Shown here in pieces: positions 40,967-58,424 of a stretch of 64,000 bases of DNA; position 1 is the first letter of the stretch; every line of letters begins with the position of its first letter. Source of the DNA: Opitutaceae bacterium (GTDB lineage: Bacteria > Verrucomicrobiota > Verrucomicrobiia > Opitutales > Opitutaceae); NCBI GenBank assembly GCA_030693515.1, contig JAUYAK010000006.1:1-64000 (forward strand), read 5' to 3'. A program made the translations under genes and the position numbers. The notes below the pieces were generated by a model. That model saw only the letters and a list, made by a program, of their open reading frames with translations. It made no database searches and was not told the origin of the DNA.

Positions 40967-41330
40967 TTTTATGCCAGTCATGAGGCGACAATCTGGGCTG
41001 GCCGCTGTCTCTCTCACCATTTCTCGTCTAAAGGCTTTAATTTTTTCCTGCGTCGAGACACGGCGATTTGTCGGCGTGTCGTTACGTCGCCGATAGATTG
41101 TAACATTCGATTCCATGCTACCTTAAATCGTGGAGCTCTTGGTAAAAGAACTTTGAGTCTACGGAAGACATAGGCCACCTATTCAGGCCTGCTGGGTGGT
41201 ATCCGATACGATATTCTTCCAAGAACCCTCTTCAACCATTAGCGTTTTCGCACAACTCGAAATTCCAACCTTGGGTCCGCAGTCTGCGGCCGCGCTGGAG
41301 CGTGCCCAGTCTGGACCTGCGACTAATTGC
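40967..41330 (+). other. Gap between sugar transferase and FemAB-like genes
   Basis: About 360 bases with lower GC than the genes. The frame of the following gene stays open back to 41196, but those residues look unlike a FemAB N-terminus. No promoter, terminator or RNA could be recognised with confidence. Confidence 0.4.
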
Positions 41331-42410
41331 ATGAATATCCACCTTGTCGCCACTCGCGCTGTCATGAGCGCAGCAGCAGCGGCATCGCGGGTGAATCCCG
41401 GCCAAGTTTCGGAATGGGATCAGCGCGTGGGTGCTTTCAAGGAGGTGAGTTTCTTTCATAGTCGTGCTTGGGCGCGGGTGCTCTCGGATGCCTACGGATT
41501 CCAACCTGCTTATTTCGAGTGCGCTGTCCCTCACGCTGCTGGTTTGCTGCCGGCCATGGAGGTTTCAAGTTGGTTTTCGCGCAGGCGCGGCGTGTCACTT
41601 CCCTTCACGGACGAGTGCAGTTTTTTGGGGGAAGACGCTGAGGCGGCCAAAGTCGCAGTATCTGCGATGCTCGGCCACGCGGTAGCGCGATCGTGGAGTT
41701 CCTGGGAGTTTCGCGGTGGGCGCGCGCCGTTTGGCGATGTGCCGGCTTCGCAAACGTATTTTGGCCACACCCTGCCGCTGGATGGCACGGTCGAGGCGTT
41801 ATTCGCCCGTCTCGACGGCAACGCCCGCACTTCCGTGCGCAAGGCGATGCAGTGTGGAGTAGCAGTGGATTTTGCCACGGACCTCGGTGCGCTGCGGATA
41901 TTTCACGACCAACTTTGCCGGACTCGGCGGCGCCATGGGTTGCCCCCGCAACCGTTTGGCTTCTTCGAGGCGATTCATCGGCATGTCCTGTTGGCGGGGC
42001 TAGGCGTGGTGGCCATCGCGCGCCACAATGGGCAGCCTGTGGCGAGTGCGATCTTTTTTCATTTCGGTCGCTCGGCGATCTACAAGTTCGCTGCTTCGGA
42101 ATTTGAGTCCCGTAACTTGCAGGCCAACCACCTGGTGCTGTGGCGCGCGATTGAGCGATATGCGGCGCAGGGATTTTCCCGGTTGGATTTCGGCCGAACC
42201 TCCTCCGTCAACAAGGGCCTTCGTCATTTCAAACTCGCATGGCGCCCGAAGGAGCACGCCATCGACTACGTTAAATACGATTTCCGGCGCGCCTGCTTTG
42301 TCGAGGCCGAGCCCGAGCGCACGACGGGTTGGCACAACCGCGTTTTTCGCCTGCTCCCTGCGCCTGTTTCGAAACTCATCGGCACCGCCATCTACCGCCA
42401 TTTCGCCTAG
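41331..42410 (+). CDS. FemAB/GNAT-fold acyltransferase-like protein of the exopolysaccharide locus
   Basis: A protein of 359 residues (start at MNIHLVATRA; an ATG 33 bases downstream is also possible). It resembles FemAB-like proteins found with exosortase and exopolysaccharide genes: EWDQRVGAFKEVSFFHSRAWARVL at the N-terminus, LDGNARTSVRKAMQCGVAVDF, and the C-terminal GNAT part with VVAIARHNGQPVASAIFFHF and LDFGRTSSVNKGLRHFKLAW. Classical FemAB enzymes use aminoacyl-tRNA to add amino acids to peptidoglycan; which acyl donor these relatives use is not known. It lies between the priming enzyme and the Wzc-like gene. Confidence 0.8.
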   Translation: MNIHLVATRAVMSAAAAASRVNPGQVSEWDQRVGAFKEVSFFHSRAWARVLSDAYGFQPAYFECAVPHAAGLLPAMEVSSWFSRRRGVSLPFTDECSFLGEDAEAAKVAVSAMLGHAVARSWSSWEFRGGRAPFGDVPASQTYFGHTLPLDGTVEALFARLDGNARTSVRKAMQCGVAVDFATDLGALRIFHDQLCRTRRRHGLPPQPFGFFEAIHRHVLLAGLGVVAIARHNGQPVASAIFFHFGRSAIYKFAASEFESRNLQANHLVLWRAIERYAAQGFSRLDFGRTSSVNKGLRHFKLAWRPKEHAIDYVKYDFRRACFVEAEPERTTGWHNRVFRLLPAPVSKLIGTAIYRHFA

Positions 42411-44731: not shown

Positions 44732-46942
44732 ATGCTGACGAAAAGCCAGAAGCTCTACTATGCGCTCAAGCCCGTCTTGCCGTGGCGTCTGAGATTTGCG
44801 CTGCGCCGCTTCGCAGCGCGCAGCATCGTCGCCAACAGCCGGACCACTTGGCCCATTGATCCGGCCACGCGGTTTGCCCCGGAGGGCTGGCCGGGCTGGC
44901 CGCAGGGCAAGAAATTCAGCGTTGTGCTCACGCATGATGTCGAGGGCATGGCGGGCCTCGCGAAATGCCGCCAGCTTGCCGACCTTGAGGAGTCGCTCGG
45001 TTTCCGCAGCTCGTTCAATTTTATCCCCGAGGGCGAATACCGCGTGACGCCCAAGCTTCGTGAGGAACTGTCGGCCCGGGGGTTCGAAGTCGGCGTGCAT
45101 GATCTGCGCCACGACGGTAAACTCTTCCATTCGCGCGACCACTTTCGCGCCAACGCCCCCGGGATTAATCGCTACGTCCGTGAATGGGGTGCGGTCGGTT
45201 ACCGTTCTGGATTCATGATGCGCAACCTCGACTGGTTGCATCAACTCGACGTCCTCTACGATTCATCGACCTTCGACACCGATCCGTTCGAGCCTCAGCC
45301 GGACGGCGCCGGCACGATCTTTCCCTTTTGGATCGGCCAGGAGGATGGTGAGGGTGAAAACTCCCGCAGTCCCCGCGGCGGCTATGTCGAGTTGCCCTAC
45401 ACGCTGCCGCAGGATTCCACGTTGTTTCTCGTCCTGCGCGAATCCTCCCCCGAAGTTTGGATTCGCAAGCTGGATTGGGTCGCCGCCCAAGGTGGTATGG
45501 TGCTCATGAATGTGCACCCGGACTACATCCGCTTTGATGGCGATCCGGCGTCATCTCGCACCTATCCCGTGGGATTCTACGTGCAAGTGCTCGAGCATCT
45601 GAGGCGTAATTACGCCGGACAGTATTGGCACGCCCTCCCGCGCGAAGTCGCGGCGTTCACGGCCGGCCTGCCGCGTCGGCCAGCGCGGAGAAAATCGCGC
45701 CGCGTATGCATGGTCACGCACTCGTTCTACGAGAGCGACAACCGCGTGACGCGCTACGCCGAGTCGCTTGCCGCGCGGGGCGACCATGTGGATGTCGTTG
45801 CCTTGCGCCGTGCGCCTCATTTGCCGACCCACGAATTCATCGAAGGCGTGAACGTCGTCCGTCTGCAGGACCGCTTTGGTAAAAACGAGCGATCAAAACT
45901 CGCCTTTCTCTGGCCTCTCTTGCGCTTCCTCGCCGTTTCGACGCGATGGATCACGCGCCAAAGCTGGCAGCAACCCTACGACTTGGTGCATGTGCACAAC
46001 ATGCCCGACTTCCTCGTCTTCGCGGCGTGGCATCCCCGCCTCACCGGAGCGAAAATCATCCTCGATATCCACGACATCGTGCCCGAATTCTACGGCAGCA
46101 AATTCGGCAATGGCGAAGGCTCGCTTACCACGTGGGCGCTGAAGGTCGTCGAGCGCTGGTCCGCGCATTTCGCCCATCACATCATCGTGTCGAATCACCT
46201 CTGGCTCGAGACCTACCGTGAGCGCACCGGCATGGAGGGCCGCTGCTCCGTTTTCATCAACAACGTCGATTCAGCCGTCTTCCAGCCGCAGCCGCGCACG
46301 CGCACCGACGACAAAGAGATCGTGATTTTTCCGGGCGGACTCCAGTGGCACCAAGGCCTCGATATCGCCCTGCACGCCTTCAAGATCGTCAGCGCACGCC
46401 TGCCCAAGGCCGAATTTCACATTTACGGCGACGGCAACATGAAGCCCTCCCTGGTTGCGCTCGCGAGTGAACTCGGTTTCAACGGCAAAGTGAAATTCTT
46501 CGAGCCTGTCGGCGTGCGCCAGGTGGCGCGCATCATGGCCGGCGCCGATCTGGGCATCGTGCCCAAGCGCGCCGACTCCTTCGGCAACGAAGCCTACAGC
46601 ACGAAAATCATGGAGTTCATGTCCGTTGGCATCCCCGTCGTGATTTCGCGCACCAAGATCGATCAGTTCTATTTCAACGACTCCGTGGCGCGTTTCTTCG
46701 AGTCTGGCAACGCCGCTGCTCTTGCCGAGGGCATGATCGAGGTGCTCGAAAATCCCGAACTTCGGCGTCGCATGGTCGCCAACGCCTCCGCCTATGCCGA
46801 CGCGCATAGCTGGAAGCGCCGCCAGATGGACTACCTCAGGATCGTCGACGAGTTGATCGCCGGCACCGTGGAGGAAACCTCACTCGGAACCGACGGGCAG
46901 GACTCGGACTCCAACTTCCCCACCTCCGCCACTGCGCCATGA
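44732..46942 (+). CDS. Fusion of polysaccharide-deacetylase-like domain and GT4 glycosyltransferase
   Basis: A protein of 736 residues with two halves. Residues 1-315 are a NodB-like deacetylase domain (VVLTHDVEGM, FEVGVHDLRHDGKLF, RSGFMM, NVHPDY). Residues about 320-715 are a GT-B glycosyltransferase of family 4 (VCMVTHSFYESDNRVTRYAESLA at its start, HNMPDF, IIVSNH, IFPGGLQWHQGLDIAL, and EAYSTKIMEFMSVGIPVV for sugar-nucleotide binding). Together one protein could transfer and deacetylate a sugar. It shares ATGA with the following gene. Confidence 0.88.
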   Translation: MLTKSQKLYYALKPVLPWRLRFALRRFAARSIVANSRTTWPIDPATRFAPEGWPGWPQGKKFSVVLTHDVEGMAGLAKCRQLADLEESLGFRSSFNFIPEGEYRVTPKLREELSARGFEVGVHDLRHDGKLFHSRDHFRANAPGINRYVREWGAVGYRSGFMMRNLDWLHQLDVLYDSSTFDTDPFEPQPDGAGTIFPFWIGQEDGEGENSRSPRGGYVELPYTLPQDSTLFLVLRESSPEVWIRKLDWVAAQGGMVLMNVHPDYIRFDGDPASSRTYPVGFYVQVLEHLRRNYAGQYWHALPREVAAFTAGLPRRPARRKSRRVCMVTHSFYESDNRVTRYAESLAARGDHVDVVALRRAPHLPTHEFIEGVNVVRLQDRFGKNERSKLAFLWPLLRFLAVSTRWITRQSWQQPYDLVHVHNMPDFLVFAAWHPRLTGAKIILDIHDIVPEFYGSKFGNGEGSLTTWALKVVERWSAHFAHHIIVSNHLWLETYRERTGMEGRCSVFINNVDSAVFQPQPRTRTDDKEIVIFPGGLQWHQGLDIALHAFKIVSARLPKAEFHIYGDGNMKPSLVALASELGFNGKVKFFEPVGVRQVARIMAGADLGIVPKRADSFGNEAYSTKIMEFMSVGIPVVISRTKIDQFYFNDSVARFFESGNAAALAEGMIEVLENPELRRRMVANASAYADAHSWKRRQMDYLRIVDELIAGTVEETSLGTDGQDSDSNFPTSATAP

Positions 46943-48138
46943 GAGATCGCATCGAACACAGCCTTCGCCGCGTGCAGCAGTGGGTCGAGGACCGCGGTTA
47001 CCGCGGCTACGATCCGGGCGATGGGCTGACGTCTTTTCTCCGGCCGCTCACGTTCGGCAATCTTTTCGCCGAGCGTCTCCTGCAGCAGGCGATTTGGAAA
47101 TCCCCGATCAACGTGCGCCCGCTCGTCGGCGTGAAGCCGCTCGATTCCACCAAGGGCCGCGGCTTCATGGCCTGGGGTTACGCGCTCCGCCATGAATCGA
47201 CGGGCGACGACACCTTCCGCCAAAAGGCCGCGCATTGCCTCGAATGGCTCGATCGGGCGCGCGAGCGGGATCAAGCCGGGCACTGCTGGGGCAATCATTT
47301 CGATTTCTCCACCCGTAGCGGCTGCATGCGAGCCCACACGCCGACTATCGTGTGGTCAGGTCTCATCGGCCAGGGCTACCTCGCGGCCTACGAACGCTTC
47401 CGCGAGCCCCGCCATCTTGAGATTTGCGACAGCATCTGCCGCTGGATTCTCACCCTGCCGCGGGAGAAGACGCCGACGGGAAACTGCCTCAGTTACACGG
47501 GCGTGTTTCAGAACTCCGTTCACAATTCTAATCTCCTCGGCGCCGCGCTGCTCGCCAAGACCGGTCGTCTGACGGGCAACACGCACTATCTCGAAGTCGC
47601 GCGCGACGCCGTGCGCTACAGCTGCACGCGCCTCCGGCCGGACGGCTCGTGGTGGTATGGCGAGGATCCGAAATACCACTGGATCGATAATTTTCACACG
47701 GCCTACAACCTCGACAGCCTCCGCCGCTACATTGATGCGACCGCCGACCGCTCCTTCGACACCCATCTCGCGCGCGGCTACGAGTATTTCAAAGCGATCT
47801 TTTTCGAGCCTTCCGGCCGCCCGCGCTACTACCACGACCGGACCTACCCGGTGGACATCCAGTGCGCCGCGCAGGCGATCGACACCTTCGCTTATTTTTC
47901 CGACCGCGACCCCGCCGCGCTCTCGATCGCAATGAAAGTCGCCGATTGGACCATCGCCAACATGCAGGATCGCACGGGTTATTTCTACTACCGCGAATAT
48001 CCGATGATGAAGGCCCGCACGCCGTATTTCCATTGGGGCCAGGCGACGATGTTCAAGGCGCTCGCCCATCTGCTCGTGAAGCTGGGCCCGCCACAGCCGT
48101 TCCGGCGCGAGCCCGCGCATGCTGGCGTCGCCTCATGA
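46939..48138 (+). CDS. Six-hairpin (alpha/alpha toroid) glycosidase-like protein
   Basis: A protein of 399 residues without signal peptide. Repeated helix pairs with aromatic loops (GRGFMAWGYALRHE, GHCWGNHFDFSTRSG, GSWWYGEDPKYHWIDNFHTAYNLDSL, CAAQAIDTFAYFSD, YFYYREYPMMKARTPYFHWGQATM) fit the six-hairpin glycosidase or glycosyl-epimerase superfamily. No family number can be given. It could modify or epimerise cytosolic sugar intermediates. It overlaps both neighbours by four bases (ATGA), so it belongs to the operon. Confidence 0.75.
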   Translation: MRDRIEHSLRRVQQWVEDRGYRGYDPGDGLTSFLRPLTFGNLFAERLLQQAIWKSPINVRPLVGVKPLDSTKGRGFMAWGYALRHESTGDDTFRQKAAHCLEWLDRARERDQAGHCWGNHFDFSTRSGCMRAHTPTIVWSGLIGQGYLAAYERFREPRHLEICDSICRWILTLPREKTPTGNCLSYTGVFQNSVHNSNLLGAALLAKTGRLTGNTHYLEVARDAVRYSCTRLRPDGSWWYGEDPKYHWIDNFHTAYNLDSLRRYIDATADRSFDTHLARGYEYFKAIFFEPSGRPRYYHDRTYPVDIQCAAQAIDTFAYFSDRDPAALSIAMKVADWTIANMQDRTGYFYYREYPMMKARTPYFHWGQATMFKALAHLLVKLGPPQPFRREPAHAGVAS

Positions 48139-49076
48139 GTTCGCCCCGCCTCAGTTATGTGCTCGTCACGCCCGCGCGCAACGAGGCGGCCTTCATCGCA
48201 GGCACGATCACTTCCATGATCGCGCAGACGGCGCGCCCGCAGCGCTGGATCATCGTGAGCGACGGCTCGACTGACGGCACCGACGATATCGTGCGTCGCC
48301 ATGCCGCGCAGCATCCCTGGATCGAATTGCTGCGCATGCCGGAGCACCGCGATCGCACGTTTGCGGCCAAGGCCAATTGTTTCGCCGCCGGTTTCGCCCG
48401 CCTGCAGAACCTTGAGTTTGATCTCGTGGGCAATCTCGATGCCGACATCACCATGGGCCCGGACTACTATGAGTTTCTGCTCGCCCGTTTCGCCGAACGC
48501 CCCCGGCTCGGCGTGGCCGGCACGCCGTTCGTCGAAGACGAGTCGCAGCCCGGCAACCACAGCTACGCCCACGGCTCAGCCAACCTCACGCACGTCTCCG
48601 GTGCCTGCCAGATTTTCCGCAAGCAGTGCTTCGCCGAGATCGGCGGCTACGTGCCGATCAAGGGTGGCGCGATCGACTGGATCGCGGTGACGACGGCACG
48701 GATGAAGGGCTGGGAGACGCGCACCTTTCTTGAGCGCGTGTGCTTCCACCACCGCAAGATTGGCACCGGCAACCACAGTCCGCTCATGGCGCGTTTCCAC
48801 TACGGGCGGAAGGCCTACTACGTCGGCGGCCACCCGCTTTGGGAAACGCTGCGCGGGCTCTTCCAGTTTCGCGAGGCGCCGTTCCTCATTGGTTCGATCT
48901 GGTTTGTCGCCGGCTACTGGTGGGCCTGTGTCACGCGCATGCCGCGTCCGGTGTCGCGGGAGCTGATGGCGTTTCATCGCGGGGAGCAGATGACACGGCT
49001 GCGGCAATTGCTTCGCCTCGAAAAGAAACCGGCGCCGCCGGCCACTCCGCCGGCCGCCTCGGGCCATCGCGTCTGA
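48135..49076 (+). CDS. Family 2 glycosyltransferase
   Basis: A GT-A protein of 313 residues, started at MSSPRLSYVLVTPARNEAAF, where the ATGA overlap with the preceding gene gives coupling. Family marks: SDGSTDGTDDIV, the DxD-like LVGNLDADITMGPDYY and FVEDESQPG. A C-terminal hydrophobic part (FLIGSIWFVAGYWWACV) may attach it to the membrane. Donor and acceptor unknown. Confidence 0.9.
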   Translation: MSSPRLSYVLVTPARNEAAFIAGTITSMIAQTARPQRWIIVSDGSTDGTDDIVRRHAAQHPWIELLRMPEHRDRTFAAKANCFAAGFARLQNLEFDLVGNLDADITMGPDYYEFLLARFAERPRLGVAGTPFVEDESQPGNHSYAHGSANLTHVSGACQIFRKQCFAEIGGYVPIKGGAIDWIAVTTARMKGWETRTFLERVCFHHRKIGTGNHSPLMARFHYGRKAYYVGGHPLWETLRGLFQFREAPFLIGSIWFVAGYWWACVTRMPRPVSRELMAFHRGEQMTRLRQLLRLEKKPAPPATPPAASGHRV

Positions 49077-49083
49077 CGAATCC

Positions 49084-50022
49084 ATGCCGTCCGGCGCCGC
49101 CCAATCCGTCACCTCTGCGCCCGATCGCGCTCGTCCGCATCTGAGCGTCTGCATCTGCACCTACAAGCGGCCCGTGCTGCTCCGCCGGTTGCTCGAGGAA
49201 TTGGAAAAACAGGAGACCGGCCGGGACTTCGATTACTCTGTCGTCGTCGCCGACAACGACGCGGCGCGCTCCGCCGAGGCGCTAGTCGGCGAGTTTGCGG
49301 AGCGGAGACCAGGCCGCGTCACGTATTGCTGCGAGCCGCAGCAGAACATCGCCCTCGTCCGCAACCGCGCGATCGCGCACGCGGGCGGCGATTTCATCGT
49401 GTTCATCGACGACGACGAATTTCCCGTGCCGACATGGCTCGCCGATTTGTGGCGGGTGTGTGAGCGCTTCGGTGTCGCGGGCGTGCTAGGCCCTGTGCGG
49501 CCGCACTTCGATGCCTCTCCGCCCGGCTGGTTGATCAAAGGCCGCTTCTGCGAGCGTCCGGAATTTCCCACGGGCACGCCGCTGACGTGGTCGCAGTGCC
49601 GCACGGGCAATGTGCTTTTTCGCCGTGCCATCCTGCCGGCGGGAGAACCGCCCTTTCGCGAGCAATTCGGCACCGGCGGCGAGGACGTGGATTTTTTCCA
49701 ACGGATGACCGCCCGAGGCGCGAAGTTTGTCTGGTGCAACGAGGCCGTGGCCTACGAGACCGTGCCGCCCTCGCGGTGGACGCGACGTTACGCGCTCCAG
49801 CGCGCCCTGCTGCGCGGCAAGAACAGTCTCAAGATCGCGGAAGGCCGGTCCCTGCTGCTGGCCAAGTCGATCCTCGCGGTGCCCCTGTATGGGATTGTGC
49901 TGCCGTTTTCGCTGTTGGCCGGCCACCATCGCTTCATGAAACTCTCGATCAAATGCTGCGACCACGTGGGGCGGCTTCTCGCTGCGGTGGGGCTTCATCC
50001 CATGGACACGCGGCCGATGTGA
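49084..50022 (+). CDS. Family 2 glycosyltransferase
   Basis: A GT-A protein of 312 residues with LSVCICTYKRPVLLRRLLEEL at the start of the fold, VVVADNDAARSAEALV, the DxD in FIVFIDDDEFPVP, and FGTGGEDVDFFQRM, where the catalytic base is expected. A C-terminal hydrophobic stretch (ILAVPLYGIVLPFSLLAG) suggests membrane contact. It follows the other GT2 gene by seven bases. Confidence 0.9.
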   Translation: MPSGAAQSVTSAPDRARPHLSVCICTYKRPVLLRRLLEELEKQETGRDFDYSVVVADNDAARSAEALVGEFAERRPGRVTYCCEPQQNIALVRNRAIAHAGGDFIVFIDDDEFPVPTWLADLWRVCERFGVAGVLGPVRPHFDASPPGWLIKGRFCERPEFPTGTPLTWSQCRTGNVLFRRAILPAGEPPFREQFGTGGEDVDFFQRMTARGAKFVWCNEAVAYETVPPSRWTRRYALQRALLRGKNSLKIAEGRSLLLAKSILAVPLYGIVLPFSLLAGHHRFMKLSIKCCDHVGRLLAAVGLHPMDTRPM

Positions 50023-50032
50023 GGACAACCCG

Positions 50033-50908
50033 ATGACCATCGAAGGTAAACAACTCGTTGTCCGCGGGATTTTCCCGCGTATCGCCTGCCTGCGCCATGA
50101 GTGGTGCGATTTTCTCGAGAATCCGCCACGGGCTGTGCAGGAAATCAAGCAGGCGAAGGTGCGAGCGGATGTCTTCACCTACGTCGATGATATCAATTCG
50201 TCTAATCCAGACTTCGGTTATCCAACGGAGCCACTGGGCATCGCAGTGTTGCGCCTGACGACCTTCGAGCAGTGGTGGAATGGGATCGGGTTCAAAGCTC
50301 GCAACAAGATTCGGAAAGGCCAGAAGAGTGGGGTCGATGTGCGAGTCGTCAAACTGGACGATGCGTTCGCCGAGGGCGTGGAGGCTATTTACAACGAGTC
50401 ACCGATCCGGCAGGGGCGGAAATTCTACCATTTCGGAAAAAGAAAAGACGCGATCAAGGATGAGCTTCGCTCCTTCATCGATCGGAGTATCTTGCTCGGC
50501 GCCTATCTCGATGGGAAGCTGGTCGGCTTCACCAAGCTTTTCCAAGCCGACAACGTCCTGCGCACGGTGCACATCATAGCGACGCTGGAGCACCGAGAAA
50601 AATGTGTCATGGACATCATGATGGCCAAAGCCGTTGAGCAATGCACGCAGCTCACGATTGCTAACCTGCACTACGGATCCTGGACTGACGGCGGCGTGGG
50701 CGCGTTCCGGACCAAGCACGATTTTCAACGCGTGGACACGGTGCGTTATTTTGTGCCGCTTACTTTGGCAGGAAAAATCGCGCTGGGGCTTGGCCTGCAC
50801 GTGCCGTTGCGGACGCGCATCCCGAGCGAATGGCTGGAGCCATTGTTGAAACTGCGCGGGCAGCTGAATGCGCTGCGTTTTCGTCGAGCGAAAGAGCTTG
50901 TCGAATAA
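50033..50908 (+). CDS. Second FemAB/GNAT-like protein of the locus
   Basis: A protein of 291 residues with lower GC than its neighbours. FEQWWNGIGFKARNKIRKGQKSGVDVR resembles the FemAB segment with a conserved KxRxxIRK, and YNESPIRQGRKFYHFGK plus LLGAYLDGKLVGFTKLF fit the GNAT-like fold. Classical FemAB proteins contain two such folds; this one is short and may have a single full fold. It lies ten bases after the GT2 gene. A tRNA-like gene begins 33 bases behind its stop codon, which is notable because Fem proteins take amino acids from tRNA. Substrate unknown. Confidence 0.75.
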   Translation: MTIEGKQLVVRGIFPRIACLRHEWCDFLENPPRAVQEIKQAKVRADVFTYVDDINSSNPDFGYPTEPLGIAVLRLTTFEQWWNGIGFKARNKIRKGQKSGVDVRVVKLDDAFAEGVEAIYNESPIRQGRKFYHFGKRKDAIKDELRSFIDRSILLGAYLDGKLVGFTKLFQADNVLRTVHIIATLEHREKCVMDIMMAKAVEQCTQLTIANLHYGSWTDGGVGAFRTKHDFQRVDTVRYFVPLTLAGKIALGLGLHVPLRTRIPSEWLEPLLKLRGQLNALRFRRAKELVE

Positions 50909-50941: not shown

Positions 50942-51036
50942 GGAGAGGTGGCTGAGTGGTTTAAGGCAGCGGTCCGCAAGGACTGCTATGTGGTTAATAG
51001 CCGCATCGGAGGTTCGAATCCTTCCCCTCTCCGCCA
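50942..51036 (+). tRNA. Serine-type class II tRNA-like gene with GNRA-capped anticodon arm
   Basis: A 95-base cloverleaf with encoded CCA. Acceptor stem GGAGAGG/CCTCTCC (50942-50948 with 51026-51032), discriminator G as in tRNA-Ser, a Ser-like D arm (GCT...GGC with GG in the loop), a long variable arm (TGTGG/CCGCA, 7-base loop) and a T loop TTCGAAT. The anticodon arm is abnormal: 50969-50975 and 50980-50986 form a 7-bp stem (one G-T pair) closed by GCAA (50976-50979), so there is no 7-base loop, no T at position 33 and no clear anticodon. The T stem contains one extra base (bulged T near 51022). A weak -35/-10-like pair (TTGTCG 50898, AATGAA 50921) lies upstream. Either a specialised non-decoding tRNA or a tRNA pseudogene; an automatic caller may give it a serine or undetermined label. 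Confidence 0.75.
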
Positions 51037-51125: not shown

Positions 51126-52958
51126 ATGTCCGGACTTGTTGGCATCGTCGGCCCTCGCTCTCGCAATCCCTCTTCGGCCACCGAAGTCGGCCTGATGGCG
51201 CGCGCGATGGCGCGGGCGATGGAGGCCCCGGCGCAGACGCATGAATGCACCGTCGAGCGGGAAGGCGCGCGGTTGGCGTGGGTGCAGCGGGCCGACAATG
51301 GAGACTGCGCGGCGTGGAACAGCACGCGCGATGTCTTCCTCGTGTTTCACGGCCGCGATTTCGATCTGGAGGAGAAGGCGCGTGCCCTGCGGTCGCGCGG
51401 GCTGGCCTTTCAGACCGAAGCCGAGTGCCTGCTTCATTGCTACGAGGCGGAGGGCGAGGCCTTCGTGCCGACGCTCAACGGCCGTTTCAGCGGCCTGATC
51501 ATCGACCGGCGCAAGGCGAAGGTGCTGCTCTTCAACGACCGTTTCGGCGCGGGGCGTGTGTATGTGCGCCGCAGTCCGGACGGGCTGGCGTTTGCATCCG
51601 AGGCCAAGGCTTTGCTCGCGGCATTTCCCGAACTCCGGCGCGTCGATCCGCGCGGGCTGGGGGAATTCTTGTCGCTGGGGTGCGTGTTGCAGGACCGCAC
51701 CCTGTTTCCTGATGTCACGCTGCTGCCGCCGGGTTCGTTGTGGACCCTTTACCCGGACGGGAGGGTGGAGCAGCGCCGCTATTTCTCGCCGGAGAGTTGG
51801 GAACAGCAGACGGCGCTGGAGCCGGAGGAATTCTGCGAGCAACTGACGCAGCTTTTTTCCCGAATCGTGCCGCGCTACCACCGGGAGGCCGGATCGGTGG
51901 CGATGTCGATGACCGGGGGCCTCGACAGCCGCATGATCCTCGCGTGGGCCAAGACCACGCCGGGGGAGCTGCCGTGCTATACCTTTGGCGGCCCCTATCG
52001 CGATTGCGCCGATGTGCGCATCGCCCGCCGTCTGTCCGGCCTCGCCGGGCAGCCTCATCGCACAATCCCGATCGGGCCGGATTTTTTTCCGCAATTCCTC
52101 GCCTTGGCCAGGCGCACCGTGGAGCTGAGCGATGGGACGATGGATGTCTCGGGCGCGGTTGAGCTCTACGCCAACCGTCTCGCCAAGGACCTCGCGCCGA
52201 TCCGACTGACAGGCAATTACGGCTCTGAGATCCTGCGGGCAAATGTGGCCTTCCGTCCGCGTTCGCTCGACCCCTCGCTGTTCGCGCCTGAGTTCCGGCC
52301 GCAATTGGAGGCGGCGGCTGAGACCTATCGCGGGGAGGCGGCGGGTCATCGGCTTTCGTTCATCGCGTTCAAGCAAGTGCCATGGCACCACCACGCTCGG
52401 CTCTCGGTCGAGGCGGCGGTGCTCGAACCGCGCTCACCGTTTCTCGACAATGCCCTGGTGGCGCTCGCCTACCGCACGCCCGCGGCTTGGCAGGGCAGTG
52501 CGGTGCCCGCGTTGCGAACCACGGCAGCGGGGAATCCAGCGTTTGCCGCCGTGCCGACCGATCGGGCGGTGCGGCTGAAACCGGTGCCGGTGTTTGGAGC
52601 CGTCGCGCACCGCTGGCAGGAGTTCACCGCCAAGGTGGAATATGCCTGGGACTACGGCATGCCGTCGTGGCTGGTTGGGGTTGTCCGGCCGTTCCGTCCA
52701 CTGCATCCGGAGCGGTTATTTCTGGGGCGCCACAAGTTCTACCACTTCCGCACTTGGTATCGGGAGCAACTGGCCGACGCGTTGTCTTCGCTCCCGCTTG
52801 ATTTCAATCATCTGCCAGCTTGTTACGCTGCGGGTGTCCCACGGCACCTCGTCGAGACGCACGTCGCTGGCCGGGCCAACCGCACGCTCGACTTGCACCG
52901 CCTGCTTACGCTGCACTTCATCGATCGCCAGATTTCCAGCACGCCATGCAGCAATTGA
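51126..52958 (+). CDS. Asparagine-synthetase-like amidotransferase without N-terminal cysteine
   Basis: A protein of 610 residues of the AsnB type. The N-terminal glutaminase-like domain begins MSGLVGIVG; active enzymes have Cys as residue 2, here it is Ser, so glutamine hydrolysis is unlikely. LFNDRFGAGRVYV is the usual loop of this domain. The synthetase domain has the PP-loop SMTGGLDSRM near residue 260 and VEAAVLEPRSPFLDNALV. Such proteins are common in exopolysaccharide loci and may amidate a uronic acid with free ammonia, or have another role. It begins 89 bases after the tRNA-like gene and overlaps the next gene by 13 bases. Confidence 0.88.
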   Translation: MSGLVGIVGPRSRNPSSATEVGLMARAMARAMEAPAQTHECTVEREGARLAWVQRADNGDCAAWNSTRDVFLVFHGRDFDLEEKARALRSRGLAFQTEAECLLHCYEAEGEAFVPTLNGRFSGLIIDRRKAKVLLFNDRFGAGRVYVRRSPDGLAFASEAKALLAAFPELRRVDPRGLGEFLSLGCVLQDRTLFPDVTLLPPGSLWTLYPDGRVEQRRYFSPESWEQQTALEPEEFCEQLTQLFSRIVPRYHREAGSVAMSMTGGLDSRMILAWAKTTPGELPCYTFGGPYRDCADVRIARRLSGLAGQPHRTIPIGPDFFPQFLALARRTVELSDGTMDVSGAVELYANRLAKDLAPIRLTGNYGSEILRANVAFRPRSLDPSLFAPEFRPQLEAAAETYRGEAAGHRLSFIAFKQVPWHHHARLSVEAAVLEPRSPFLDNALVALAYRTPAAWQGSAVPALRTTAAGNPAFAAVPTDRAVRLKPVPVFGAVAHRWQEFTAKVEYAWDYGMPSWLVGVVRPFRPLHPERLFLGRHKFYHFRTWYREQLADALSSLPLDFNHLPACYAAGVPRHLVETHVAGRANRTLDLHRLLTLHFIDRQISSTPCSN

Positions 52959-54334
52959 TTCTTTTCGGATTTCTGCTCTTCGCTGCGTGGCTCATCCGGC
53001 GGGACATCGCCATGCGCCCAGGCCTGTCGCTGGGCCTTTGGATTCCGACGCTGTGGGTGGGCATCATCGCGTCGCGGCCAGTCTCAGCCTGGATCGGATT
53101 CGGCGGATCGGCGGACACCTTGGACGGAAGTCCGGCCGATCGGATGTTTTACCTGACGATGATTGTGGCGGCGTTCATCACGCTGTCGCGGCGAGCATTC
53201 AGCATGCAGTGGGTTTTGGCGCGCAGCTGGCCGGTTGTATTATTCTATGCCTTCCTGCTGCTGAGCGTGCTGTGGGCGAACTCCCTCGAGTCCTCGTTCA
53301 AGCGTTGGTTCAAGGAAACGGGCAACATCATGATCGCGCTCGTGATTCTTACGGAGGCCAATCCGATGCAAGCCATCCGGGCGGTCTTTGTGCGCTGCGC
53401 ATTGGTGCTGATCCCGCTGTCGCTGATCTTCATCCGCTATTTCCCGGATTTGGGCCGGCGCTACAGCCAACACTCCGGTCAGATGGAGGCGACGGGCGTG
53501 ACCTTCCAGAAAAACTCACTTGGCACGATGCTGCTGGTTTGCGGCATCGTCTTCATCTGGGATTGGATGGAAAGGTCCCGAACCAACGATAAAAATTGGA
53601 CGGCGATCGATCGTGGCGTGGCGCTGGCCATCATGGGCATATCGGTCTGGCTTTTTTTCCTCTGCGACAGCAAGACGTCCATGGTGGCTTTGGGTGTCGC
53701 CGCCATCCTCCTGGCTGCGATCCGGATGCCTGCATTTCACCGTCGAATTAGCGCCTTTGGCATATTCGGCGTCGCTGCGGTGGCGGCACTGATCACGATG
53801 GATAGCCTCGTGGGTGTGACGCAGACGATCGTTACGGCGCTCGGACGCGACATGACCTTCACCGGTCGCACGGAGGTGTGGCGCGAGCTATTCGCGGTCG
53901 GCACCGATCCGCTGTTCGGCACCGGCTTCATGAGTTTCTGGGACGATCGCTTCTACCAGGCCAAGTTGCCCAACTGGATCGCGTTCTCCGCTCACAACGG
54001 CTACATTGAGATTTACCTGGCCGGCGGCATGATCGGCGTCGGATTTCTTGGACTCATGTTGTTGGGCGTCGGGGTGATCATCAACCGGGACCTCAAGCGC
54101 GGGGGAAGTTATGCTTTGGTGCGTTTCGCGGTTTTCGTCGCCGTGCTGATCGCAAATATCTTCGAGTCAAACTTCGCCTGCATGACACCTCTGGGCTTTC
54201 TGTTTCTCGTGGTGGCGATTGGCTATGCCACGCCGCAGGCCGAGTTCACGGAGGACGCCTCTCACCAGCCGGAGGAGTCCGCGCTGCAACCCCTCCCCGA
54301 TGGCCAGGTGATCGGCCGGCCGCATTACCCATGA
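52946..54334 (+). CDS. O-antigen ligase / Wzy-type polymerase-like membrane protein
   Basis: A multi-pass membrane protein of 462 residues, started at MQQLILFGFLLFAAWLIRR. About ten hydrophobic helices are seen. The large loop contains TFTGRTEVWRELFAVGTDPLFGTGFMSFWDD and AHNGYIEIYLAGG, the RxxxW and HNxxLE-like motifs of the Wzy/WaaL family. It is the only polymerase or ligase candidate of the locus. It overlaps the AsnB-like gene by 13 bases and the next gene by ATGA. Confidence 0.88.
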   Translation: MQQLILFGFLLFAAWLIRRDIAMRPGLSLGLWIPTLWVGIIASRPVSAWIGFGGSADTLDGSPADRMFYLTMIVAAFITLSRRAFSMQWVLARSWPVVLFYAFLLLSVLWANSLESSFKRWFKETGNIMIALVILTEANPMQAIRAVFVRCALVLIPLSLIFIRYFPDLGRRYSQHSGQMEATGVTFQKNSLGTMLLVCGIVFIWDWMERSRTNDKNWTAIDRGVALAIMGISVWLFFLCDSKTSMVALGVAAILLAAIRMPAFHRRISAFGIFGVAAVAALITMDSLVGVTQTIVTALGRDMTFTGRTEVWRELFAVGTDPLFGTGFMSFWDDRFYQAKLPNWIAFSAHNGYIEIYLAGGMIGVGFLGLMLLGVGVIINRDLKRGGSYALVRFAVFVAVLIANIFESNFACMTPLGFLFLVVAIGYATPQAEFTEDASHQPEESALQPLPDGQVIGRPHYP

Positions 54335-55152
54335 ACGCAGCGGGGCCGATTCCGAAGCGCATCATCCAGACCGGAAAGACCCGGGAGCTTCCGCTGCTGG
54401 AGCAGGCGGCGTGGGTGAATCTCACCCGGCTCAACCCAGACTTTGAGCACGTCTTTTTCACGGACGCCGACATCGAGGCGTTCATGGATCGCGAGTTTCC
54501 TCAGTATCGCGCGGTGTTCGACGGGTTTCCTTTCAAGATTCAGCGGTTCGATTTCTTCCGTTATCTCGCGGTCTATCGGCTCGGTGGATTCTATTTCGAT
54601 CTCGATGTCTTTCTGGCGCGCGGGCTCGCCGATCTTTCCAGTGCGTCGTGTGTGTTTCCCTTCGAGGAGCTGACGCTCAGCCGTTTCCTGCGCGACCGCC
54701 ATGCGATTGACTGGGAGATTGGCAACTACGCCTTCGGTGCGTGCGCCGGACATCCTTTTCTCAAGGCGATCATCGACAACTGCGTGCGGGCGCAGCAGGA
54801 GCCGCGCTGGGCGGAGGAGATGTTGGGAGACATTCCGCGGTGGTTTCGCGACGGCTTCAATGTGCTGCACACCACCGGTCCCGGTTTGGTCACGCGCACG
54901 CTGGTCGAGCAACCGGAAGCGGCGCAATCCGTCACGATCCTTTTTCCGCCCGATGTGTGCGACCAGCGGGCGTGGCACAAATTCGGCGACTACGGTGTGC
55001 ACTTGATGGCGGCGTCGTGGCGCGGTCGCGGCGGATTTCTCAAGCGGAGGCTGGCGATGATGTGGGAAACGCGCCGGCGGGAAAAATTCATGGCCGAAAG
55101 CCAGCGGCTGGGCCCCCAGCGATCGTTTCCCGCGCGGCCTTCGGTGGCGTAG
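54331..55152 (+). CDS. Family 32 glycosyltransferase (OCH1-like)
   Basis: A protein of 273 residues with IPKRIIQTGKTRELP at the N-terminus, FDFFRYLAVYRLGGFYFDLDVF with the DxD metal motif near residue 92, and FGACAGHPFLKAI, as in GT32 sugar transferases. It transfers an unknown sugar in repeat-unit synthesis. Coupled to the previous gene by ATGA and followed by a deacetylase after two bases. Confidence 0.88.
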   Translation: MNAAGPIPKRIIQTGKTRELPLLEQAAWVNLTRLNPDFEHVFFTDADIEAFMDREFPQYRAVFDGFPFKIQRFDFFRYLAVYRLGGFYFDLDVFLARGLADLSSASCVFPFEELTLSRFLRDRHAIDWEIGNYAFGACAGHPFLKAIIDNCVRAQQEPRWAEEMLGDIPRWFRDGFNVLHTTGPGLVTRTLVEQPEAAQSVTILFPPDVCDQRAWHKFGDYGVHLMAASWRGRGGFLKRRLAMMWETRRREKFMAESQRLGPQRSFPARPSVA

Positions 55153-55154
55153 TC

Positions 55155-55913
55155 ATGCGGAACATTGTCAGACGAATCCGTGGGGCCTCGGCGCGGCGCA
55201 TGGCCAAGTGGTTTGCCAAACGGCCCTGGACGGTCCCCGCCGACCGCCCGGTGATTTCGTTCACCTTCGACGACTTTCCGCGTTCGGCGTTGACGCAAGG
55301 GGGCGCGATGCTTGAGCAGCACGGGCTCGCGGCGACCTACTACAGCTCGTTCGGTCTGATGGGTCGCACGATTGAGACCGGGTTGATCTTCAATCAGAAT
55401 GACATCCCGCGGCTTTTTCGGGGAGGGCACGAACTCGGCTGCCACACCTACGATCATTGTCCGGCTTGGGAGACCCCGCCGGCGGACTACCTGGCTTCGG
55501 TGCATCGCAATGCGGCGGCACTGGCCGCGCTGGCCGGCGAGCGTGGGTTTGAGACTCATTCCTACCCTATCAGCTATCCGCGACCGGCCACGAAGCGCGG
55601 CCTCGGCCGGATTTTTAGTGGCTGCCGCTTCGGTGGCCAGGTGCGCAACACCGGCATCGTCGATCTCAACTGCCTCGCGTCCTTCTTTCTTGAGCAGTGC
55701 GGTGAGAACATCGGCAGCGTGGAACGGATCATCGGTGAAACCGTGGATTCGGGTGGATGGTTGATTTTCTCGACCCATGACGTGGAGCAGGCCCCCACGC
55801 GCTATGGATGCACGCCCGTATTCTTCGAACGCGTAGTGGCGTGTGCGGTCCGCTCGGGGGCCGCGATCCTGCCCGTGAGTCAGGCACTGACGGCATTTGG
55901 AACCAGCCGTTGA
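55155..55913 (+). CDS. Polysaccharide deacetylase (NodB family)
   Basis: A protein of 252 residues, start chosen at MRNIVRRIRGASARRM just after the GT32 stop. Motif 1 is TFDDFPRS (catalytic and metal aspartates) and motif 2 is HTYDH (metal histidines); later SYPISYPRPATKRGL and LIFSTHDVEQAPTRYGC complete the fold. It removes acetyl groups from N-acetylated sugars of a polymer or a lipid-linked intermediate. No signal peptide is evident, so a cytosolic or membrane-near role is likely. Confidence 0.9.
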   Translation: MRNIVRRIRGASARRMAKWFAKRPWTVPADRPVISFTFDDFPRSALTQGGAMLEQHGLAATYYSSFGLMGRTIETGLIFNQNDIPRLFRGGHELGCHTYDHCPAWETPPADYLASVHRNAAALAALAGERGFETHSYPISYPRPATKRGLGRIFSGCRFGGQVRNTGIVDLNCLASFFLEQCGENIGSVERIIGETVDSGGWLIFSTHDVEQAPTRYGCTPVFFERVVACAVRSGAAILPVSQALTAFGTSR

Positions 55914-55950: not shown

Positions 55951-56976
55951 GTGAGCACCGCCAAGCCTTCGTCATCGCGCCTCGACTACCTCGATCTGAC
56001 CAAGGGGTTGCTCGTGTGCGTGATGGTGATTTATCACAGCCTCAACTACACGAACCAGTATCATCTGGGGTTCCGGTTCTTCTCCTTTTTGCCGCCCTCG
56101 TTTGTGCTGATCACAGGGTTCCTTCTCGCGGTGGTTTATTTTCCCCGCTTTCAGCGAGGCGAACCCGGCTTGGCGTGGCGGCTGGTCTTTCGCAGTCTCC
56201 GCCTGCTGACGCTGTTTGTCGGCTTGAATGTGATCGCGCAGTGGGTTCGCAGCCCGGCCTATGGCCAGAAGGTGGGCGTCGCGGAGTTTTTTGCGCACTG
56301 GCAGGAGGTGTTTCTTCAGGGCGGCGCGAGGCTCGATGGCGGCGCCCGGATCGCGGCCTTCGAAGTGTTGCTGCCGATTGCCTACACCATCGCGCTCGCT
56401 CCGCTGCTGCTCATGCTCGCCGCCAAGGTCCGCTGGTTCCTGCCTGTGTTCTGTGGGGCGTTCGTCGGACTCTGCGGGTGGCTGGGGTATTACGACTATC
56501 CGTTCATCAACCTGCTGTTCATGGGTGCCGGGGTGATTGGAATCTTCGGCGGCTGGCTGGTGCGCGATCCCGACACACTGGAGCGATTTTTCTGGCCGGC
56601 ACTCGCCGCGGCCGTGGCCTATGCGGTGCTCGGAACCGGGCGGGGCTACGTCTATGCGCTGCAGATGGCGGGTTCGATCATCGCGGTGGTCTTCCTTTGC
56701 GGGCTGAGCATGAAGCTCGCGAACCGTTTCGCGGGTGCGTGGCTCATCCGGCATGCGATCCGCGTGGGCCAATACTCGCTGGTCGCCTATGTCGGCCAGA
56801 TAGCGTTGCTGCAAATTCTCGTGCGGCCGCTCGGGCGGCCGGACCCGGTTTCCTGGGGGGCGCTGGCGATGTTCGGCGGCACGCTCGTCGGGATGTCCCT
56901 GCTCGTTGAAACCACGAAGTGGCTTCGCGGGCGATCTGCGCTGGCGGATCGCGCCTACAAGCTCGTGTTCGCCTAG
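55951..56976 (+). CDS. OpgC/acyltransferase-3-like membrane protein
   Basis: A protein of 341 residues (GTG start, MSTAKPSSSRLDYLDL; a TTG at 55897 would overlap the deacetylase gene). The N-terminus LDYLDLTKGLLVCVMVIYHSLNY has the conserved aspartate and histidine of acyltransferase-3/OpgC proteins. About ten membrane helices follow. It probably transfers an acyl group (succinyl or acetyl) to the polysaccharide at the membrane. Confidence 0.82.
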   Translation: MSTAKPSSSRLDYLDLTKGLLVCVMVIYHSLNYTNQYHLGFRFFSFLPPSFVLITGFLLAVVYFPRFQRGEPGLAWRLVFRSLRLLTLFVGLNVIAQWVRSPAYGQKVGVAEFFAHWQEVFLQGGARLDGGARIAAFEVLLPIAYTIALAPLLLMLAAKVRWFLPVFCGAFVGLCGWLGYYDYPFINLLFMGAGVIGIFGGWLVRDPDTLERFFWPALAAAVAYAVLGTGRGYVYALQMAGSIIAVVFLCGLSMKLANRFAGAWLIRHAIRVGQYSLVAYVGQIALLQILVRPLGRPDPVSWGALAMFGGTLVGMSLLVETTKWLRGRSALADRAYKLVFA

Positions 56977-56984
56977 CCGCACCC

Positions 56985-58424
56985 ATGCTCTTCAATTCGC
57001 TCGAGTTCGCGATTTTCTTTCCGGTCGTCTGCGTGTGCTACTTTGCGCTCGGTCGCCGCGGCCAGACCAACCTGCTGCTGGTCGCGAGTTGCGTGTTCTA
57101 CATGGCGTTCGTGCCCGCCTACATCCTGATCCTCGGGGTCACGATCGTCATCGATTACTTTGCCGGAATGTGGCTCGAGACAGCCCGGGGCCGCGACCGC
57201 AAGGTTCTGCTCGTCGTCAGTGTGGTCGCGACGTGTCTCGTTCTGTTCATCTTCAAATACTACGCGTTCTTCACCGGGTCGTTCGTGGGCCTCGCGGGGC
57301 TGCTCGGATGGAAGGTGTCGCCGCCGATGCTCGAAATCATCCTGCCCATCGGGCTCTCGTTCCACACGTTTCAGAGCCTGAGCTACGTGGTGGAGGTCTA
57401 TCGGGGGCACCATAAGGCCGAGCGGAATTTTGCGGCTTACGCGACCTATGTGATGTTCTTCCCGCAGCTCGTCGCCGGCCCGATCGAGCGTCCGCAGAAC
57501 CTGCTCGACCAGTTCGCGATTCGCCATGGTTTCGACTACGCGGGCGTCACGAGTGGCTTGAAGCGCATGGCGTGGGGTTTCTTCAAGAAACTCGTCGTGG
57601 CCGACCGGCTGTCGCTCTACGTCGGTGATGTCTATGCGAATCCCCAGGCGCACAACGGCCTTCAACTCACCATCGCGACGGTCTTTTTCGCCTACCAGAT
57701 CTACTGCGATTTTTCGGGCTACTCAGACATCGCGATCGGCACGGCCCGCGTGCTCGGGTTCAAGCTGATGGAGAACTTCAACACGCCGTATGCCTCGACC
57801 TCGATTTCCGAGTTCTGGCGGCGCTGGCATATCTCGCTCTCCACCTGGTTTCGCGACTACCTCTACTTTCCCTTGGGCGGCAGCCGCGTGGGTCCGCTCA
57901 AGCATACGCGCAACATCCTGCTCACCTTCGGCGTCAGCGGCCTGTGGCACGGCGCCAACTGGACCTACGTCATTTGGGGCCTGCAAAATGGCCTTTATCT
58001 CATCTTCGGCTGGCTTACGCAGCCGTTTCGGTCGCGGGTCTACGCGGCCGCGGGATTGCCGGAGCGGCACCCGCTGCGCCTGTTCGTGGGGATAACCTGC
58101 ACGTTTGCCCTGACGTGCGCGGCGTGGGTCATATTCCGGGCGCATTCGCTCGGGGATGCCTGGCACATCTATACCCATCTGCACCTGGACTGGGACTGGA
58201 GCCGCATCACGACGCAGCAATTCAGCCTGAAACACTTTGTGCCGGCCCTCGCGGCGATCGTCACGCTTGAGCTCGTGCAGTTCGCCGGGCGCCGGCTCAA
58301 TCTCGCAGAGTGGGTTTCAACCCTGGCGTTTCCCGTCCGCTGGTCCTTCTACCTCGTCGCGGTCTATGTGATCATCTTGTTCGGCGTGTTTCGCTCGCAC
58401 AGTTTCATCTACTTCCAGTTCTGA
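56985..58424 (+). CDS. MBOAT-family O-acyltransferase (AlgI-like)
   Basis: A membrane protein of 479 residues starting MLFNSLEFAIFFPVV. Family marks are FFPQLVAGPIERPQNLL, YCDFSGYSDIAIGTARVLGF, SISEFWRRWHISLSTWFRDYLYFPLGGSRVG (in separate parts) and the catalytic histidine in GVSGLWHGANWTY near residue 323. AlgI-like proteins pass acetyl groups across the inner membrane for polysaccharide O-acetylation; the periplasmic AlgJ/X-type partner is not in the window. It ends 12 bases from the end of the convergent sulfatase gene. Confidence 0.94.
   Translation: MLFNSLEFAIFFPVVCVCYFALGRRGQTNLLLVASCVFYMAFVPAYILILGVTIVIDYFAGMWLETARGRDRKVLLVVSVVATCLVLFIFKYYAFFTGSFVGLAGLLGWKVSPPMLEIILPIGLSFHTFQSLSYVVEVYRGHHKAERNFAAYATYVMFFPQLVAGPIERPQNLLDQFAIRHGFDYAGVTSGLKRMAWGFFKKLVVADRLSLYVGDVYANPQAHNGLQLTIATVFFAYQIYCDFSGYSDIAIGTARVLGFKLMENFNTPYASTSISEFWRRWHISLSTWFRDYLYFPLGGSRVGPLKHTRNILLTFGVSGLWHGANWTYVIWGLQNGLYLIFGWLTQPFRSRVYAAAGLPERHPLRLFVGITCTFALTCAAWVIFRAHSLGDAWHIYTHLHLDWDWSRITTQQFSLKHFVPALAAIVTLELVQFAGRRLNLAEWVSTLAFPVRWSFYLVAVYVIILFGVFRSHSFIYFQF

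Follow-up and report, generated by a model that had tools for sequence, protein, structure and literature searches.

The nearest precedent for the locus described here is the combination, known from Staphylococcus aureus, of the FemXAB/MurM enzymes with a tRNA-Gly that binds elongation factor Tu (EF-Tu) weakly, and the special isoacceptors of that organism are thought to escape EF-Tu through changes in the T arm (PMC4052509). In Caulobacter a FemX-like protein of the GCN5-related N-acetyltransferase (GNAT) type, HfsK, has been suggested to acylate the amines that the deacetylase HfsH exposes, the acyl group being unknown (PMC5362036). The present analysis concerns a 64,000-nt stretch of DNA from an Opitutaceae bacterium (contig JAUYAK010000006.1), referred to throughout as the window and numbered from its first letter, and in particular a Ser-type tRNA gene without a canonical anticodon loop (50942..51036, + strand; sequence, ARAGORN and Rfam) that stands next to a gene for a FemAB-like protein. 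It is considered likely, with good confidence, that this is a dedicated, non-decoding tRNA-Ser feeding the adjacent FemAB-like transferase in an exopolysaccharide pathway; the amino acid that it carries is probably destined for a surface sugar polymer and not for protein synthesis. The tRNA gene had been described in an earlier, sequence-only reading, from which the adjacent FemAB-like gene and the Ala- and Thr-type counterparts were absent and to which they are added here.

The window tRNA gene and its Ser-type relatives

The gene is 95 bases long and comprises a 7-bp acceptor stem, a short D stem, a long variable arm (50988..51006, from sequence and fold), a T loop, the discriminator G73 (51033) and an encoded CCA (51034-51036). 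The sequence and the ARAGORN cloverleaf bear out the tRNA-Ser body, with its long variable arm, G73 and CCA, that the sequence-only reading had recognised, and together with the 7-bp acceptor these are the features expected of an elongator tRNA-Ser; the long variable arm is the main serine identity element (PMC9976931). The genome has four canonical tRNA-Ser genes (GCU, GGA, CGA and UGA), and the window gene is a fifth, surplus to these.

The departure from the canonical form lies in the anticodon arm and the T arm. ARAGORN reports 50942-51036 (+) as tRNA-??? with a four-base 'anticodon', gcaa, and no assignment, and its cloverleaf, the simplest, has an 8-nt loop, CCGCAAGG, on the stem GCGGU/ACUGC. 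When this stem is extended inwards by the CC/GG pairs and outwards by an A-U pair, the arm (50968..50987, from sequence and fold) becomes an 8-bp stem, AGCGGUCC[GCAA]GGACUGCU, closed by a GNRA tetraloop at 50976-50979, as had been claimed; folded alone it has a minimum free energy (MFE) of -13.1 kcal/mol, and none of 200 shuffles was as stable. On inspection of the sequence the loop holds no anticodon triplet for serine, and a 7-nt loop and U33 are both missing, the last two points in agreement with the sequence-only reading. Loops of the GNRA, UUCG and CUUG kinds are stable, and 288 of the 65,536 possible 8-mers would yield two pairs and a GNRA loop. Extra inner pairs can be drawn in ordinary 7-nt loops too, and one canonical anticodon arm also folds convincingly against its own shuffles, so that the diagnostic features are the length of the arm, the missing anticodon and the additional base in the T arm. 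The MFE fold of the whole RNA is not a cloverleaf, but the acceptor, the hairpin and the long arm still form in it.

The T arm (51008..51025) contains an additional base on the 3' side (CCUUCC), established by sequence comparison: there are 13 nt from the start of the T loop to the 3' strand of the acceptor, against 12 in the four canonical tRNA-Ser of the same genome. A drawing may place the extra base within the 3' strand of the T stem, as a bulged U, or leave it unpaired beside the acceptor stem, as ARAGORN does, and the uninterrupted 7/5 acceptor-T stack of an elongator tRNA-Ser is lacking. A covariance-model check, which the sequence-only reading had proposed, gives the RNA 27.1 bits with Rfam RF00005, a score below the cut-off of 29 and the lowest of the genome's 48 hits. 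Two other identities were rejected. With the tRNA-Sec model RF01852 the score is 37.2 bits against a gathering threshold of 47 and there is no UCA in the loop, and the 12-bp acceptor domain (8/4 or 9/3) of an allo-tRNA is not found, the acceptor having 7 bp, U8 facing C and the T arm carrying an extra base. The other Rfam matches found on searching the stretch (sX4, Plastid-psbl-rps4 and rpfG) were all below threshold. Elsewhere in the genome there is another odd tRNA (G000:C24:21528-21601), read by ARAGORN as tRNA-??? with ttac, which scores 37.1 bits and has no CCA.

Twenty further Ser-type sequences were compared with that of the window. All twenty have the long arm and G73, in 19 the 7-bp acceptor is paired throughout, L100 having a single mismatch, and 19 encode CCA, the exception being L090. 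The distance from the start of the T loop to the acceptor is 13 nt in all 21 sequences and 12 nt in ten further ordinary tRNA-Ser that were read, and the extra T-stem base noted in the sequence-only reading is therefore common to the whole set. The anticodon arm is 18 nt long in the window and L090, 19 in L164, 20 in fifteen sequences, 22 in L103 and 24 in L146 and L147, and the usual length of 17 nt does not occur among the 21. The stem is fully paired up to a four-base loop in 13 of the 21, the loop being CUUG in six and GCAA (the window), CUUA, UUGA, UUUA, AACU, CAAA and CUAA once each; the loop has five bases in L164 and in L090, the stem of the latter containing a bulge. In an alignment of twelve sequences 94.8% of the cells of an 8-bp anticodon stem are paired and both sides have changed in three of the eight pairs, a result that is to be taken as support and not as proof, since the shuffles used to assess covariation do not keep relatedness. 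The expectation that relatives with a covarying GCAA arm would be found thus holds for the stem, but the GCAA loop itself is not conserved, being confined among the 21 to the window.

The sequence-only reading had named a tRNA pseudogene as its main alternative, and a decaying tRNA-Ser left behind by recombination would account for the sub-threshold score, the lack of a readable anticodon and the presence of four ordinary tRNA-Ser genes in the same genome. It would also suit the failure of a search of 57 genomes to find any close copy, the best match over the whole gene outside the window being 77%; of 30 matches fetched, 28 were ordinary tRNA-Ser by ARAGORN, one was the window and one an ordinary gene cut by a contig end, and two further matches from the window's own genome were also read. 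Loss of constraint across relatives, which is expected of a tRNA pseudogene, is however not what is seen. The acceptor stem, long arm, G73 and CCA are intact and the hairpin is perfect, the 20 Ser-type relatives share the T-arm deviation and have arms that are lengthened or capped, the anticodon stem has undergone compensatory changes and the genes are linked to one family of enzymes. The relatives and the paired changes in the stem argue strongly against decay, which is regarded as very improbable, and the kept features, with no arm of 17 nt, support the earlier proposal of a non-decoding serine tRNA that could still be charged and is under selection for a stable hairpin.

Unusual decoding, for example by a frameshifting or quadruplet-reading serine tRNA with the gcaa of ARAGORN as its anticodon, scarcely seems credible. 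It would fit the 8-nt loop of the simplest cloverleaf, serine triplets do occur in the arms of some relatives and some allo-tRNAs insert serine at non-serine codons on expression in Escherichia coli (PMC7609411). The would-be anticodon of the window is nevertheless a GNRA loop closed by two C-G pairs, U33 is absent, and the loops and arm lengths of the relatives (18-24 nt) vary with no constant anticodon.

With R1, a covariance model built for the Ser-type of the acidobacteria, the acidobacterial Ser-types score at least 77.7 bits and the next matches at most 61.6. A search with an RNA model through 396 genomes of the phylum of genome G756, with strict filters and some ten candidates scored per genome, yielded G756 alone. 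A pattern search of 249 genomes of the order to which G756 belongs gave four matches, three already known and one in a further genome, G1246; this last (L164, G1246:C103:16189) is a Ser-type tRNA with a CUUGU loop that adjoins a gene for a DegT-type aminotransferase.

Linkage to a FemAB-like protein

The gene immediately upstream of the window tRNA (50033..50908, +) encodes a FemAB-like protein of 291 aa, a probable aminoacyl-tRNA-dependent transferase on family matches, predicted fold and tree, and the proposed user of the charged tRNA. It ends 33 nt before the tRNA gene, which is followed after 89 nt by a gene for an asparagine-synthase-like protein. The family matches are all weak, being to PF13480, LPG_synthase_C and TIGR03019 for the window protein and to FemAB for two relatives. 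Pfam FemAB (PF02388) matches two of five members weakly (best E 0.016), short of a family-level assignment, and does not match the window protein at E <= 1, while PF13480 matches four of the five (best E 1.2e-6). The predicted model, built from an alignment of 37 sequences, has a mean predicted local distance difference test (pLDDT) score of 92.7 and the tandem-GNAT fold of FemX and MprF. Its best fold matches in the PDB, at ranks 1-3, are the streptothricin-type synthases Sba18/Sbb17, with template modelling (TM) scores of 0.58-0.61, E values of 1.6e-11 to 2.9e-11 and 14% identity. Below rank 5 come MprF, FemX and phosphatidylglycerol aminoacyltransferases (TM 0.54-0.63), FemX of Weissella giving about 0.62 and MprF of Pseudomonas 0.56-0.60. 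The acetyl-CoA motif Q/RxxGxG/A does not occur in the aligned segment of 36 of the 37 sequences. The gene has a G+C content of 55.9%, compared with 62.8% for the window, and may have been acquired by horizontal transfer.

The association of enzyme and tRNA recurs. In the genus to which the window belongs the FemAB-like protein is found in 6 of 27 genomes, and in all six its gene is followed by a tRNA gene on the same strand (that of L081 is cut by a contig end). A scan of the genomes of 84,980 species with a five-row alignment gave 41 loci of the FemAB-like gene; a scan of genome contigs with a single protein found nothing. A non-canonical tRNA lies within 250 nt of the enzyme gene, or overlaps it, at 22 of the 41 loci (13 Ser, 8 Thr and 1 Ala), a count in which the tRNA of L126, cut by a contig end, is taken from its copy L081 and in which L111 overlaps only through the upstream start chosen, the matching part of the enzyme beginning after the tRNA. 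A tRNA would be expected near about 0.4% of random genes, and since the loci are related no exact P is given. Of two further loci, L118 has a canonical-looking tRNA-Gly and L105 a Ser-type tRNA 1.2 kb upstream of the enzyme gene. When the genomes of the 17 remaining loci were searched with R1 a Ser-type tRNA was found in three, 8 and 10 kb upstream of the enzyme in L094 and L127, and beside a second copy of the enzyme in L106. In the soil bacterium Terracidiphilus gabretensis S55 the distance between the Ser-type tRNA and the enzyme gene is about 10 kb. The genome search with R1 covered 37 of the 41 loci, L101, L123, L126 and L130 having been omitted as copies of genus members. Protein searches found the enzyme in 2 of 372 genomes of the window's order and 2 of 387 of its phylum, the window's own being included in both; few candidates were scored per genome, and these figures are lower bounds. 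One match from the phylum, L085 (E 1.8e-6), had no tRNA by ARAGORN. A second, tandem copy of the enzyme, in two pieces of which one has an internal TGA, was seen at G732:C151:3688-4498.

The tRNA is downstream of the enzyme gene or overlaps it in the Thr-types and in Verrucomicrobiota, upstream in the acidobacterial Ser-types and kilobases away in a few cases. The hosts are named as Acidobacteriota, Verrucomicrobiota, Nitrospirota and Thermodesulfobacteriota, mostly metagenome bins, and phyla known from a single bin could be mis-binned.

The Ala-type tRNA (L078, identical with L101) combines G3:U70 and A73 with a 7-bp arm capped by UUCG, and its gene encodes no CCA. The Thr-types keep the anticodon UGU or CGU in all 11 distinct sequences, and six of these (L097, L113, L119, L121, L125 and L090) are without U33, whereas it is present in all 46 of the other distinct tRNA genes that were checked in the genome of the window. 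Cloverleaf drawings of the Thr-types show mismatches in the T stem, although one mismatch is also found in an ordinary tRNA-Thr of the window's genome. In L121 (5941-6981), L125 (1078-2160) and L173 the Thr-type gene is overlapped by an enzyme frame that runs through it.

The clade of the enzyme agrees with the type of the tRNA. In a tree of 45 proteins, from which L129 (a partial protein) and the genus copies L078-L081 are omitted, the nine Thr rows form one clade (100/98), the enzymes of the window and L090, each accompanied by a Ser-type tRNA, group as sisters (100/99), and across the 29 rows with a tRNA its type changes twice, the minimum for three types. The 16 rows without a tRNA label fall among the acidobacterial Ser rows, with the exception of L122 near the base; L118, counted as Gly in another tree, is entered in this one as having none. 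Each of the genomes of L094 and L097 encodes a pair of enzymes that divide between the two clades, and carries tRNAs of the Ser-type as well as the Thr-type. L090 also has both types, the Thr-type gene (884-958; UGU, C33, no CCA) lying about 115 nt after the Ser-type; both were missed by ARAGORN, and the enzyme gene there is cut by the contig end.

The proposed pathway and its rivals

The window's genome has one gene for seryl-tRNA synthetase (SerRS), a second having been looked for in it and not found, and this single SerRS would charge the window tRNA with serine, because SerRS recognises the long arm and the acceptor end without regard to the anticodon. With its anticodon arm sealed the tRNA would be kept off codons, and the ribosome would be unable to use it. 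The T stem is a contact site of EF-Tu, whose binding is probably weakened by the distortion of the T arm, though the sequence is only suggestive on this point. With codon reading blocked and EF-Tu binding weakened the serine would be reserved, and the FemAB-like transferase would transfer it from the tRNA onto an acceptor of the exopolysaccharide pathway, for which a sugar amine is the most likely candidate. The Ala- and Thr-type pairs would do likewise with alanine and threonine. The features kept differ with the type (the long arm and G73 in Ser, G3:U70 and A73 in Ala, UGU/CGU in Thr), and the best reading is that dedicated tRNAs keep what the synthetase reads and drop what the ribosome reads.

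The genes around the pair, all on the + strand and assigned by family matches unless otherwise stated, are consistent with an exopolysaccharide pathway. Upstream lie an initiating sugar transferase (40184..40966), a second FemAB-type protein closest to TIGR03019 pepcterm_femAB but below its cut-off (41196..42410), a polysaccharide chain-length determinant/tyrosine kinase (42439..44658) and, between this and the FemAB-like gene, glycosyltransferases (44732..50022) with one protein (46939-48138) that has no family match. Downstream are the asparagine-synthase-like protein (51126..52958; TIGR01536 and XrtA amidotransferase families, below cut-offs), an O-antigen ligase/polymerase-like protein (Wzy_C; 52820..54334), a frame holding a polysaccharide deacetylase that resembles holdfast HfsH, below the family cut-off (54741..55913), and, at the end of the cluster, an MBOAT acyltransferase (56919..58424). 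Beside the cluster, at 37758-38798 on the - strand, is a protein that has a PATR repeat and, below threshold, a weak PEP-CTERM signal. The HfsH-like deacetylase could expose amines for aminoacylation. Two acidobacterial clusters that were examined (L091 and L108) also have a sugar dehydrogenase and a DegT-type aminotransferase, and L091 a uridine diphosphate (UDP)-sugar dehydrogenase, and from such neighbours it is plausible that the acceptors are amines produced by aminotransferase or deacetylase. AsnB needs an N-terminal Cys; the asparagine-synthase-like protein of the window starts MSGLVG and so has no Cys2 glutaminase nucleophile. A homologue of it occurs at 31 of the relatives' 41 loci and none of the 30 starts read from the alignment has Cys at residue 2, that of L090, set too early in the alignment, reading in truth MSALAG.

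A position within the gene cluster, 33 nt after one gene and 89 nt before the next, would also suit an RNA that, whether charged or not, senses the supply of serine, threonine or alanine, or titrates the synthetase, and so controls the exopolysaccharide operon while donating no amino acid, and regulatory roles have been described for a pseudo-tRNA of Bacillus cereus (PMC3399842). A regulator or decoy of this kind would however leave unexplained both the aminoacyl-tRNA-dependent transferase fold of the linked protein and the agreement of enzyme clade with tRNA type, and the placement of the tRNA relative to the enzyme gene (downstream, overlapping, upstream or kilobases away) also speaks against it. 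It is judged unlikely.

There are several observations that weigh against a dedicated, non-decoding donor. Six of the 21 Ser-types (L091, L096, L099, L100, L115 and L135) have an A.C mismatch beneath the loop, and the arms of 13 of the 21 contain serine triplets as strings, in two cases after a U, although these triplets mostly overlap the paired stem. R1 gives the window 57.1 and L090 50.9 bits, compared with 41.7-54.3 for seven ordinary tRNA-Ser, so that common descent with the acidobacterial Ser-type is not established and the window-type and acidobacterial Ser-types may have separate origins; a convergent origin, if true, would strengthen the functional argument. G1246 carries a Ser-type tRNA and no FemAB-like match at 1e-10. 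The Ser label of L094, L097, L105 and L127 comes from a tRNA 1.2 to 10 kb away, and the tRNA of L118 (5715-5790), 210 nt upstream of the enzyme gene, is a canonical-looking tRNA-Gly(UCC) that is there by chance or represents a glycine version. No dedicated tRNA was found at 14 of the 41 loci, nor a strong R1 match in those genomes, a search that does not tell window-like Ser-types from ordinary tRNA-Ser and was not directed genome-wide at Thr- or Ala-types; the best match, read for ten of the 14 (all but L092, L102, L108 and L114), was in each an ordinary tRNA-Ser. A dedicated tRNA is therefore not obligatory. Among the fold matches there is a protein of unknown function at ranks 4-5, and acetyl-CoA enzymes also appear, such as VipF at rank 14 (TM 0.43). 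With these points taken into account the dedicated tRNA-Ser remains the preferred reading for the window, and the wider proposal, of an operon-encoded class of tRNAs outside the genetic code in at least four phyla, each reduced to the identity elements of its synthetase, with a decoding loop that is sealed or neglected, and each the dedicated donor for a partner FemAB-like enzyme by which serine, alanine or threonine is attached to exopolysaccharide, is favoured with more reserve.

Comparison with known systems

If the proposal is true these would be tRNAs dedicated by their architecture to a role outside translation, and a natural experiment that separates the features read by the synthetase from those read by the ribosome. 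It also touches the open question of where the FemX-like enzymes of exopolysaccharide and holdfast pathways obtain their acyl group, a question stated for HfsK (PMC5362036), as a linked Ser-, Thr- or Ala-type tRNA would name the likely donor and amino acid in advance of the chemistry, and chargeable anticodon-less tRNAs may serve as tools for the study of EF-Tu discrimination and aminoacyl transfer in vitro. The passages of the open-access literature that were searched gave no account of tRNAs whose anticodon arm is sealed and which are linked to FemAB-like enzymes, and a 2026 review of aminoacyl-tRNA-dependent enzymes (PMC12945691) contains none of the terms 'tRNA gene', 'anticodon' and 'dedicated', nor Sbb17.

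Several known systems nevertheless share some part of what is seen here. The allo-tRNAs (8/4 and 9/3) have SerRS- or alanyl-tRNA synthetase (AlaRS)-type identity with non-serine anticodons, and some are found in Acidobacteria (PMC7609411). They differ in having 12-bp acceptor domains and readable anticodons, whereas here there is a 7-bp acceptor, an extra T-arm base and no readable anticodon. Sba18/Sbb17 resemble the FemAB-like protein most closely in fold, but their PDB titles name no dedicated tRNA. The tRNA-Other of B. cereus likewise resembles a tRNA, does not function in translation and has effects on the cell envelope; its anticodon, however, is that of Trp, it is a poor substrate for aminoacylation in vitro and a regulatory role has been proposed for it, the part of the paper drawn on names no transferase partner, and membrane lysylation was unchanged in a deletion mutant (PMC3399842). 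As in Caulobacter the window cluster has HfsH-like and FemAB-like genes, but no tRNA is named in the corresponding part of the Caulobacter paper (PMC5362036). In common with FemXAB/MurM of S. aureus there is, here as a prediction, a GNAT-fold enzyme that uses aminoacyl-tRNA. The isoacceptors of that organism have weak EF-Tu elements and changes at G18-G19, and loss of the anticodon loop is not described for them in the portion of the source cited (PMC4052509). Here, unlike in S. aureus, the tRNA is linked to the gene for its enzyme, the anticodon arm is sealed, three amino-acid types are represented and the setting is one of exopolysaccharide clusters.
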